A DNA stretch of 64,000 bases from Gammaproteobacteria bacterium (lineage in GTDB: Bacteria; Pseudomonadota; Gammaproteobacteria; GCA-001735895). Under the pieces are notes generated by a model that worked only from the letters and a program-made list of their open reading frames with translations, did not search any database and was not told the DNA's origin. This document shows positions 50,350-54,746 of this stretch, in pieces. Both the position numbers and the translations under genes were made by a program. Each line of letters opens with the position of its first letter. Within the stretch, counting starts at the first letter, position 1. The stretch is taken from positions 1 to 64,000 of the forward strand of contig JAAEMR010000257.1 in the NCBI GenBank assembly GCA_024225395.1. The letters are read 5' to 3'.

Positions 50350-50721
50350 CTATCTAAAAGACCAGAATTTAGTACCGATAAAATTAACCACAAGGGTAAT
50401 CACTATCATAACTAATTGAGCCAGCAAAGGGTCAAGCAAAAACGAATCAACCAGCAATAACATGCCAGTCAAGTTAATCATTAAGGAAATAAGGTTTACG
50501 ATTAAGAATTTATAAAACTGGTGGCTTTGATATCCGTTTTTATATCCAAATGTCCAATGTTTATTAACAAAATAGCTATTGGTTACAGCAAAACAGAAAC
50601 CTGCAGTCGATGCTAATAGATGGTAAACCCCCAGAAAACTGTACAGGTAGAAAAATACAGCATAGTGAATGGCAGTATTGAGAAAACCTACCGTGGAGAA
50701 TTTGATTAACTGCGTGAGCAT
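50350..50721 (-). CDS. GtrA-family membrane protein
   Basis: A 123-aa, four-helix membrane protein of the GtrA family (VGFLNTAIHYAVFFYLYS, AVTNSYFVNKHWTFGYKNG, VNFIGTKFWSFR). GtrA members are thought to flip undecaprenyl-phosphate-linked sugars across the inner membrane. It follows the GtrB-like gene by 28 bp on the same strand, and a DUF6056 gene lies further upstream, so it belongs to a three-gene surface-glycosylation cassette. Confidence 0.9.
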   Translation of the reverse strand: MLTQLIKFSTVGFLNTAIHYAVFFYLYSFLGVYHLLASTAGFCFAVTNSYFVNKHWTFGYKNGYQSHQFYKFLIVNLISLMINLTGMLLLVDSFLLDPLLAQLVMIVITLVVNFIGTKFWSFR

Positions 50722-50749: not shown

Positions 50750-51709
50750 TTATTCTGACGTGTTTTCAAACCCGACTGTCCGTTTGATCAAATACACAGG
50801 CCGCTGTTTAACTTCAATAAATACCCGCCCCAGATATTCACCTAAAATACCCAGGCCAATCAGGTTGATACCACTGAAAAAAAGAATAATCGAGACGATG
50901 GACGCATAACCCGGCAGGTCAATCCCGTAAATCAGGGTCTTGGCGACAATAATCAACAGATAAAACAGGGAAAAAAAGGACACTAACAGTCCAGCATAAG
51001 TCCACATTCTTAGAGGAGCGGTTGAGAATGAAAAAATACCATCAAGCGCATAATTGAACAATTTCCATAAGCGCCATTTACTCCGACCTACTGCCCGATC
51101 CGGTCGGGTAAAATCAATCACCTCTGTCTCATAACCCGGCCAGGATAGAATGCCCTTCATAAAACGATTTCTCTCGGGTAACAGGCAAATACTATCCACA
51201 ACCGTCCTGTCCATTAAACGGTAATCACCGACATCGACCGGGATTGGCGTAGAGCTTAAAGAAGATATGAGTTTATAAAAAATATTAACGGCAAACCTTT
51301 TCAGGTAACTGTCTGAAGGTCTATTTAATCTGCGTGCCAGCACAACATCCGCACCGGCTTTCCACTTTTCAATCATCTGTGGCATTAACTCCACCGGATC
51401 CTGAAGATCGACATCGATGGGTATAACAGCGTCACCTGTCGCCAGTTCCAAACCAGCTGTTAAAGCCGCTTCTTTACCAAAATTCCTGGATAATGAAATC
51501 ACCTTGACCTGCGGATTCTGTCCAGCCAGTTTAATCAGTATAGGCAGTGTTTCATCCTGACTACCATCATCAACAAACAGTATCTCAACATTATCCTGAA
51601 GCGACTTAAGCACAGGGGTAATCGAGTTCATAAAAACACGGATACTTTCCTGCTCATTAAAACAGGGAACCAGAATAGATATTAATTTATTGGATTTTTT
51701 TTCAGACAT
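50750..51709 (-). CDS. GtrB-like polyprenyl-phosphate glycosyltransferase (GT2)
   Basis: A 319-aa GT2-family enzyme with an N-terminal catalytic domain (VPCFNEQESIRVFM, FVDDGSQDETL, VIPIDVDLQDPVELM, RNRFMKGILSWPGYE) and two C-terminal membrane segments (TYAGLLVSFFSLFYLLII and YASIVSIILFFSGINLIGLG). GtrB enzymes transfer a sugar to undecaprenyl phosphate. With GtrA and the DUF6056 protein it would modify a cell-surface polysaccharide. It is a close match to the family in length and order of motifs. Confidence 0.92.
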   Translation of the reverse strand: MSEKKSNKLISILVPCFNEQESIRVFMNSITPVLKSLQDNVEILFVDDGSQDETLPILIKLAGQNPQVKVISLSRNFGKEAALTAGLELATGDAVIPIDVDLQDPVELMPQMIEKWKAGADVVLARRLNRPSDSYLKRFAVNIFYKLISSLSSTPIPVDVGDYRLMDRTVVDSICLLPERNRFMKGILSWPGYETEVIDFTRPDRAVGRSKWRLWKLFNYALDGIFSFSTAPLRMWTYAGLLVSFFSLFYLLIIVAKTLIYGIDLPGYASIVSIILFFSGINLIGLGILGEYLGRVFIEVKQRPVYLIKRTVGFENTSE

Positions 51710-51790: not shown

Positions 51791-51842
51791 ACGTTTCATT
51801 TTGTGATCAGGTTTTTTAAGCTGCTTCTCCCTGCCAATTACC
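51791..51842. repeat. 52-bp direct repeat, left copy
   Basis: The sequence ACGTTTCATTTTGTGATCAG and onward to 51842 equals 53268-53319 with one mismatch (51 of 52). The right copy lies inside the 3' end of the DUF6056 gene, encoding its near-terminal residues; similarity stops sharply at both ends. Together they flank the epimerase gene. Confidence 0.9.
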
Positions 51843-52162
51843 AATGTGGAGCAATATTTTAAAACCAGAAATCTCTCTGGATATACTAGATGAATATACA
51901 TGACAAATGAGTAATAATGAAACTGCAGACCGTCTGTAAATAGCACCACAAAAGCTATTTTTTTTTATTTTCAAACAGGATAAAACAAGTTGACTGGTTT
52001 GGGTTTCATCAAACACATTACAATAATCGTTATGCAAAACTTATCATCATTGGCACAAAGGACGTTACTCTTATTTGCCATAAGGATAGGCACAAACTGA
52101 GAATGATGCTGTGAAAGTACTTGAAGAATCAAATAAAATTTAAAAAAGAAATAATTTATATC
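51843..52162. other. Spacer between left repeat and epimerase gene
   Basis: About 320 bp of AT-rich sequence without a supported gene. A minus-strand frame of about 60 codons running into the left repeat stays open in the same frame as the repeat's DUF6056 codons, so it may be a relic. A TTGCCA near 52075 could be the -35 of the epimerase promoter. Confidence 0.35.
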
Positions 52163-53143
52163 ATGTCAGAAAAAAAACGAATTCTCGTGTGTGGTGGTGC
52201 AGGATTTATTGGTTCAAATTTTGCCAATTTTCATAAAAATGATTATGACGTCATTGCGCTGGATAATCTTTTTTTAGGTGATCCGCGTAATTTAGATGAA
52301 GGTGTTAATTTTATAGAGGGTGATGCCTGTAAGACTGAAGACCTGGATAAGGTTGGTTCAGTGGATTATATTTTAAATCTTGCTGGCACATCGTCACAAC
52401 CAATGTTTAATGGTGATGGCCTTGTTAGTGGGTATGTCAATTCTGTAGAATCATTTATGCGCGTCCTCGAATGGGGTCAAAAAAATGATGTAAAAAAAGT
52501 ACTCTACGCCTCTACGTCATCATTATATGCGAATAATCCATTACCACTCATAGAAACACAAGAGGTTATACCTCCAAATCATTATGCTGTCACAAAGATG
52601 CTTTACGAAGGTGCGAGTCGCTGCTTTAATGCGGTACATCCAGAAATGGAGATCATAGGCTTCCGTTTCATGAGTATTTATGGTCCAAATGAAGAGGCAA
52701 AAGGAGAGTTTGCAAATTTAATTTCTCAGTTCGTGTGGGATATCGCGCGCGGTCTTCGTCCGATGATTTACGGTGATGGATCACAGACTCGTGATTTTAC
52801 AAATGTGTTGGATGTTGTTCAGGCTGTTACGCTTGCTATGGAGAGTAAATCACATCTTGGAGCAAACGTTTTCAATATTGGCACAGGAAATTCTGTATCA
52901 TTGAATGAGATTACAGATGCTATCTATAAAGCATTTGGAAAAGAAAATGACGCTGAACATATCGAAAACCCCATTAAAGAATCATATATTCAAGATCAGT
53001 ATGCCGATATCACAAAAATTCAAGATGCTTTGAATTTTGCCCCAGGTGTAAAGCTTGAAGACGGTATAAAGCAACAAGTTGAAAACTTACGTATAGAACG
53101 TATTCGTCATTCAAGCTCCGACCTTATGCGTGGTATGAAATAA
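52163..53143 (+). CDS. NAD-dependent epimerase/dehydratase (extended SDR)
   Basis: A 326-aa sugar-nucleotide epimerase/dehydratase. The Rossmann motif is VCGGAGFIGSNFANF, the catalytic Ser/Thr region YASTSSLYA and the YxxxK pair NHYAVTKMLYE; QTRDFTNVLDVVQAV is typical of UDP-glucose 4-epimerase-like enzymes. I chose the ATG at 52163 (MSEKKRILVCGGAG) because it starts directly before the first strand; an upstream in-frame ATG at 52121 adds 14 lysine-rich residues. It is on the opposite strand to the glycosylation genes on both sides and lies inside a 52-bp direct repeat pair, which suggests acquisition. Its substrate is unknown. Confidence 0.85.
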   Translation: MSEKKRILVCGGAGFIGSNFANFHKNDYDVIALDNLFLGDPRNLDEGVNFIEGDACKTEDLDKVGSVDYILNLAGTSSQPMFNGDGLVSGYVNSVESFMRVLEWGQKNDVKKVLYASTSSLYANNPLPLIETQEVIPPNHYAVTKMLYEGASRCFNAVHPEMEIIGFRFMSIYGPNEEAKGEFANLISQFVWDIARGLRPMIYGDGSQTRDFTNVLDVVQAVTLAMESKSHLGANVFNIGTGNSVSLNEITDAIYKAFGKENDAEHIENPIKESYIQDQYADITKIQDALNFAPGVKLEDGIKQQVENLRIERIRHSSSDLMRGMK

Positions 53144-53255
53144 ACATGAAAAATTAGATAAAATGATGCGAAGAATTTTATCACTTAAAATGGAGAGTCT
53201 GCCATGGTGGCATGACTCAAACTAAACACCCTCCGGAATTCCCGGGGCGATTCAA

Positions 53256-54746
53256 TTATCTGGAAATACGTTTCATTTTGTGATCAGATTTTTTAAGCTG
53301 CTTCTCCCTGCCAATTACCTGCAACCCGAAATAGTCTGCATAACAGGCATTTCTCCAGTCTCTGTAATCAGGCACGATGTCATTAAAATAGATACTGCGC
53401 GGGAATTCCTGATTAAACGCCGGAACCAGCAACGCCAGATGTTTGTGCGTTACGGATTGGTTAATTAAGGCATATCGCTGCAACATATACGCATTAAAAG
53501 GTTCTGCACGTAACCAGAGATCCTGCTGGACACGTTGAAATTTAAAATTTCCCGCAACGGCCAGCATAAATAATACAGCACCCATTGAAAAAATTAGCCC
53601 ATTTGAGGTCGAGAAATATTTTCCACTGGAATTTAAAAAATCGGTCGGAGCAAAGCGGATCGTTAGAACACCCAACATCAAAAACCAGCTCAGCAAAAAT
53701 ACAAAAAAGGTAGCATCTACGGTGCGCGGAGGTGGCCACCCTCCCATCGCCCACCAGGCTGGAAACTGTAATACAAATGGTATAGCCAGCGTCAGCAAAA
53801 TAACAAACACAAGCGAGGCATTTGACAGGGTAAAAGTGCATGGAGACAAGGAGTAAAGCCGGGTTATGGCAAATGGAGTTAGCAATGTTGCAACAATAAA
53901 CAGTGGATTGAGCAACCAGCCCATCAACACCCACCACCCCATATCCAGGCTACCGTAAACAGCTCGAGTAAAATCATGTCTAAGTGGAAAAGAAGCTTCT
54001 CTCACTGCATTGCCGGGGGCAAAATAAACAATGGCAAAACAACCCAGGGTGATAACTGACAGAATCAACCAGGGTTTAACTGAAGACCAGCCTGAACGCA
54101 GCTGAAAAAGAAAAGCGAGAGCCACTATTCCGCTTAAGGCAAGCATGTTGGTTTCATTGGTACCCATGCCCAGAACAATGACAATAATCAGTGTAAACAG
54201 CACACCATAAAAACTGTTCTGCTGTTGTAACCGATCGCATAAACTGACCATTAAACCCAGCGTAAACATCAACAAAATATTGGCTGTTTGATAGCTTAGA
54301 GCTCCAGCAGGCCAGTACAGGCTGCTAGCAGTATGTTTCATACCCAGCAGAAAGACAGTGACAAAAACCAGAGAAATGAGGAGAACAGGTTTTGAGAATA
54401 ACCCTAACCTGAATAACCTGGATAGAAAAAAACTACAGGATAGAAATAGCAGCAAGATTAATAGTGCCGGCATAAAAACAAGCCCGCTAAACATGCCAAA
54501 AATTAGTGGATAAATTGCATACAGAGCATTGCCCGAATAACGCCCGCTCCATTCAACATAATGATTCCATAGGTGTGGAAACAGACCTTCCTGCCTGACA
54601 CCTGCCGCCATACAAAAATCATCAGATGATGGATGCGCATACTGTCCCAGCCAGATAAATGACAGCAACACAATAAAACCAGATAAACCAATCAGGTAAG
54701 CAGCATACCGTTGAATTACCAGTTGAGTATTTGTTTCTAACTTCAT
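53256..54746 (-). CDS. DUF6056-like membrane glycosyltransferase-type protein
   Basis: A 496-aa protein with about 10-12 membrane helices. The first periplasmic loop carries SSDDFCMAAGV and WNHYVEWSGRYSGNAL; an acidic pair after TM1 is a hallmark of GT-C-fold transferases, and this form matches DUF6056. A GtrC-like sugar transferase role would complete the gtrA/gtrB cassette. The C-terminal 52 bp of the gene is duplicated at 51791-51842. The frame is intact and ends MKRISR. Confidence 0.75.
   Translation of the reverse strand: MKLETNTQLVIQRYAAYLIGLSGFIVLLSFIWLGQYAHPSSDDFCMAAGVRQEGLFPHLWNHYVEWSGRYSGNALYAIYPLIFGMFSGLVFMPALLILLLFLSCSFFLSRLFRLGLFSKPVLLISLVFVTVFLLGMKHTASSLYWPAGALSYQTANILLMFTLGLMVSLCDRLQQQNSFYGVLFTLIIVIVLGMGTNETNMLALSGIVALAFLFQLRSGWSSVKPWLILSVITLGCFAIVYFAPGNAVREASFPLRHDFTRAVYGSLDMGWWVLMGWLLNPLFIVATLLTPFAITRLYSLSPCTFTLSNASLVFVILLTLAIPFVLQFPAWWAMGGWPPPRTVDATFFVFLLSWFLMLGVLTIRFAPTDFLNSSGKYFSTSNGLIFSMGAVLFMLAVAGNFKFQRVQQDLWLRAEPFNAYMLQRYALINQSVTHKHLALLVPAFNQEFPRSIYFNDIVPDYRDWRNACYADYFGLQVIGREKQLKKSDHKMKRISR
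53268..53319. repeat. 52-bp direct repeat, right copy
   Basis: Second copy of the repeat described at 51791-51842 (51 of 52 identical). It encodes residues VIGREKQLKKSDHKMKR near the C-terminus of the DUF6056 protein on the minus strand. The distance between the copies is 1477 bp. Confidence 0.9.

Follow-up and report, generated by a model that had tools for sequence, protein, structure and literature searches.

How did a sugar epimerase gene, read from the opposite strand and bounded by two nearly identical 52-bp sequences, come to lie inside a co-directional gene set of a gammaproteobacterium, and where did it originate? The set in question is located in the window (the whole 64-kb stretch of DNA that was analysed) and consists of three genes:

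50350-50721, minus strand: gtrA-type flippase gene
50750-51709, minus strand: gtrB-type family 2 glycosyltransferase gene
53256-54746, minus strand: DUF6056-family membrane protein gene, whose last codons (ISR, stop) are now derived from the insert and whose orthologues match PF19528

The DUF6056 protein of the window does not itself match PF19528; the name is kept because its orthologues in two genomes of the genus, G007 and G003, score 64.7 and 87.7, respectively, against a gathering score of 27. DUF6056 was found in seven of the eight genomes of the genus. In G003 and G002, both of the same genus, it is directly joined to gtrB and gtrA without an epimerase, and the segment of about 1.4 kb in the window is therefore an insertion relative to this joined arrangement, in agreement with the initial annotation, which had proposed that the epimerase splits a DUF6056-gtrB-gtrA module. 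The empty site that the annotation advised looking for was recovered in its gene order, but the joined modules of G003 and G002 sit at other genome positions and are not strictly syntenic with the window. In G007, gtrB and gtrA are absent, and the neighbour of DUF6056 is the sodium-dependent transporter that also adjoins it in the window. The neighbours of DUF6056 differ in most species of the genus (window 53256-54746; L050, L051, L052, L053, and L054), so that the gene itself seems to have been often moved or exchanged. For the closest DUF6056 relative (L050, 75%), the contig breaks within the gene at G001:C78:82313.

The insertion is bounded by a direct repeat with the following copies:

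51791-51842, minus strand: left copy of the 52-bp repeat, adjoining gtrB and bearing the single changed base; the DUF6056 end that follows it (KRLQRQ, stop) is apparently the ancestral one
53268-53319, minus strand: right copy of the 52-bp repeat, in frame at the DUF6056 3' end, with T (TCT, Ser) kept as in G007

The two copies are identical at 51/52 positions (in two uninterrupted blocks of 20 and 31 bases) and lie 1477 bp apart from start to start, while identity just outside them is 17/60 and 18/60, confirming the repeat and its sharp borders as first described. Outside these two copies, the 64-kb window has no exact direct repeat that reaches 20 bases. The suggestion that the 52-bp sequence might stand beside other cassettes was not borne out, as no further copy with up to three mismatches was found in the 4.45-Mb genome. 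The only difference is a C in the left copy, where the right copy and G007 share a T, which suggests that the left copy is probably the mutated one. The event had been called recent, and the repeats are indeed near-identical, but one difference in 52 bases (95% CI 0.05-10%) bounds its age only loosely.

The reading frame of the right copy runs into ISR and a stop codon, both from the insert, and thus DUF6056 stays open with a replaced tail, as the proposed rebuilding of the gene end had anticipated. The frame of the left copy ends in KRLQRQ and a stop codon about 70 bp before gtrB, resembling the KRLRTP of G007. As the left copy is a DUF6056 gene end, it might be what is left of a decayed DUF6056 paralogue, an alternative already raised in the initial annotation. 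A frameshift-tolerant alignment of the sequence adjoining the left copy with DUF6056 scored 49, within the range of shuffled sequences (mean 47.2, maximum 59), whereas the G007 control scored 362; this alternative is refuted, and we consider it nearly impossible.

Between the two copies, the following features were identified:

51843-51978, about 136 bp, no strand: left part of the insert, for which no matches were found
about 51979-52147, about 170 bp, plus strand: decayed manC 3' end, interrupted by one TGA and three frameshifts and corresponding to the GMP beta-helix domain (PF22640)
52163-53143, plus strand: intact gene of a Patescibacteria-type NAD-dependent sugar epimerase/dehydratase (326 aa) with GGAGFIG and YAVTK motifs
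about 53192-53254, plus strand: IS3-family right end, consisting of the last OrfB codons and the terminal repeat TGAATCGCCCCGGG (on the minus strand), with the inner part missing
53255-53267, no strand: 13-bp spacer from the IS end to the right repeat copy, which gives DUF6056 its new stop codon

The epimerase gene, on the strand opposite to DUF6056, gtrB, and gtrA, is the sole intact gene of the insert, as first annotated, but the manC 3' end and the IS3 right end had been overlooked. The insert is therefore no neat cassette but a mosaic, in which one intact gene stands between the decayed end of manC and a truncated end of an IS. A short open frame, MWSNILKPEISLDILDEYT, is present at its left edge (window 51843-51900). 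With frameshifts allowed, the manC remnant aligns to the last 53-57 residues of manC from Moranbacteria with a score of 83, compared with 45 for the opposite strand and a mean of 43.6 (sd 5.5, maximum 55) for shuffled sequences, and the aligned region of the Moranbacteria manC carries the PF22640 domain. The IS end matches, at 85-87% over 60-62 nt, elements of a family relative, and a matching complete element (L110) encodes HTH_Tnp_1 and rve proteins. Its terminal repeat and OrfB end place it in the IS3 family, for the right end only. Elements of the matching IS3 type were found elsewhere in the family, in other genera. The terminal repeat of the insert has no other match with up to three mismatches in this genome and genus; repeated elements are, however, often missing from MAGs. 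At L111:1138-1840, a shortened IS3-family element was observed, in which the start of orfA continues in frame into the end of orfB; the two terminal repeats on either side are separated by about 700 bp.

A composite transposon was rejected, since one IS end only is present in the window and not one at both borders. No integrase gene was found in the insert, which holds the epimerase, the manC remnant, and the IS3 end only; this point of the initial annotation stands. The search for known RNA families returned one chance match (SNORD47, E 0.097, which falls far short of its gathering score), and terminators were not in excess over chance. Promoter-like sites numbered 12 against 6.5 expected, but this DNA is AT-rich, and they were excluded from the evidence.

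The epimerase reaches 134.1 bits against PF01370 (gathering score 20.9), and both the glycine-rich NAD motif and YxxxK are present. The ADP-heptose 6-epimerase model (TIGR02197) was rejected at 158.8 bits, below its cut-off of 274.6, and none of the named NCBIfam families reached its cut-off. Among solved structures, the nearest are NAD-dependent epimerases with varied substrates. The product is probably a nucleotide sugar for a surface glycan, and the enzyme may thereby affect the surface sugar.

Relatives of the epimerase were sought in GTDB 220 genomes by exact 8-residue peptides, which finds close relatives only. Seven were recovered: from Moranbacteria (76-78%), from Gracilibacteria (66-67%), and two further records at 62 and 70%. 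One of these two, L082 (G396), was recovered again when the phylum of the Moranbacteria genome was searched; the other is L078. In that phylum, relatives reaching E 1e-100 were recovered from 8 of 380 genomes. No relative was found at E 1e-50 in the other 40 genomes of the family or at E 1e-60 in 368 other genomes of the class; close epimerases were likewise absent from viral contigs, and all phage and plasmid matches were below 60% identity. In the phylogenetic tree, the window epimerase is sister to the two Moranbacteria (support 100/100), with three Gracilibacteria next to this group (98/95), and all other rows of the 14-row clade containing it (99/96) are loci from the Patescibacteria search. 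Both Moranbacteria have manC immediately upstream of the epimerase gene, which fits the manC remnant at the same place in the insert; manC is absent upstream in L078, L079, and L082.

The GC3 of the epimerase gene (0.28) is intermediate between that of nearby host genes (0.33-0.44) and of Moranbacteria genes (0.16-0.23), suggesting that the transfer was not very recent or that the donor was another lineage. Of the two comparisons that the initial annotation had recommended, composition is intermediate and phylogeny gives the gene a strongly supported position among the ultra-small Patescibacteria; the epimerase is accepted as foreign. With a nearest relative at only 78% identity, the gene may have come from an unsampled carrier outside Patescibacteria, and since other genera of the family contain this IS type, an intermediate carrier among gammaproteobacteria may also have been involved. 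That the gammaproteobacterium received a surface-sugar gene directly from a Patescibacteria epibiont living on it, and that a glycan bound by epibionts or phages is now altered, we regard as highly doubtful.

The arrangement is carried by one MAG with 4.7% contamination, and its sequence was judged from the assembly alone. Since the best matches are foreign, Patescibacteria sequence might have been joined into a gammaproteobacterial contig during assembly. However, the host direct repeat is present at both junctions with one internal difference, which is not a simple join at a shared word; the insert has an IS end of a type known in family relatives, its codon usage is intermediate, and the gtr side of the contig is largely syntenic with G007. 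An assembly chimera is accordingly very improbable.

We therefore consider it most probable, at roughly 60%, that a horizontally acquired Patescibacteria-type fragment was inserted between DUF6056 and gtrB, leaving a duplication of 52 bp of host sequence. The fragment would derive from a Patescibacteria-type manC-epimerase operon, in which manC decayed to its tail and only the epimerase gene stayed intact, and an IS3-family element once behind the epimerase gene would have been mostly lost. The contents are decayed while the flanking repeats are near-identical, suggesting a two-step history in which the decay of manC and the loss of the IS preceded arrival at the present site. The fragment would then have integrated into the last DUF6056 codons with 52 bp of host sequence left on both sides, and DUF6056 would thereby have stayed open with a new C-terminal tail. 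The duplication may have been made from host sequence during insertion, by break repair or a staggered-cut type of event. We favour this, with moderate confidence, over an integrase acting at a pre-existing attachment site, because the insert contains no integrase and the 52-bp target is conserved at only 33/52 positions in G007, the nearest complete DUF6056 orthologue of the same genus.

One argument against this preferred reading is the location at the 3' end of a gene that stays open, which is how site-specific integration classically looks. Integration at an attachment site, or movement of a small unit in trans, would account for the duplication of the gene end and for an IS remnant lying towards DUF6056. 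Beyond the missing integrase and the poorly conserved target, no other target copy exists in the genome, and two sub-sequences of the target had no match in IMG/VR viral contigs; we judge this route possible but unlikely, and the clean site-specific cassette of the initial annotation does not hold for a mosaic insert. Additive homologous exchange, in which imported DNA already containing the 52-bp stretch (e.g., from the DUF6056 of another strain) entered by a single crossover, would need no special recombinase and would suit the near-identical repeats. But in the donor, these 52 bp, poorly conserved as they are, must have been present next to unrelated sequence, and the left copy has no adjoining DUF6056 remnant, which makes this exchange improbable. 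Insertion of an acquired fragment with duplication of host sequence is thus retained as the best explanation.

As a mobile-element finding, the insert is ordinary: the case, itself well documented, is one of ordinary gene acquisition and not a new kind of mobile element. Its value lies in a well-resolved Patescibacteria-type gene in a gammaproteobacterium, with the manC operon context still visible and the joined arrangement present in relatives. If the epimerase gene came from an epibiont, it would provide a starting point for studying how genes pass from Patescibacteria to larger bacteria.

Among known systems, integrative elements and genomic islands at gene 3' ends, where tyrosine recombinases have their attachment sites, resemble the insert in that direct repeats of a gene end flank them and the gene, its end replaced, remains open. 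Unlike them, the insert has the gene-end repeat at both borders but neither an integrase nor a conserved or reused attachment site, and it is a 1.4-kb mosaic with decayed and truncated pieces. The locus is also similar to three-gene gtr glycosylation modules (gtrA, gtrB, and a specific glycosyltransferase), as gtrA and gtrB lie co-directionally by a large membrane protein gene; it differs in that the third gene encodes a DUF6056 protein, whose role is putative, and that an opposite-strand epimerase gene splits the set. The titles, abstracts, and selected passages searched contained no paper centred on transfer from Patescibacteria to gammaproteobacteria, which does not prove that none exists. 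Gene exchange between Patescibacteria and other phyla is described in one study, where Pseudomonadota are listed among the donors to Patescibacteria (PMC12455944). Inter-phylum transfer involving Patescibacteria is common to that study and to the present case, whereas the tree here points from a Patescibacteria-type source to a gammaproteobacterium.
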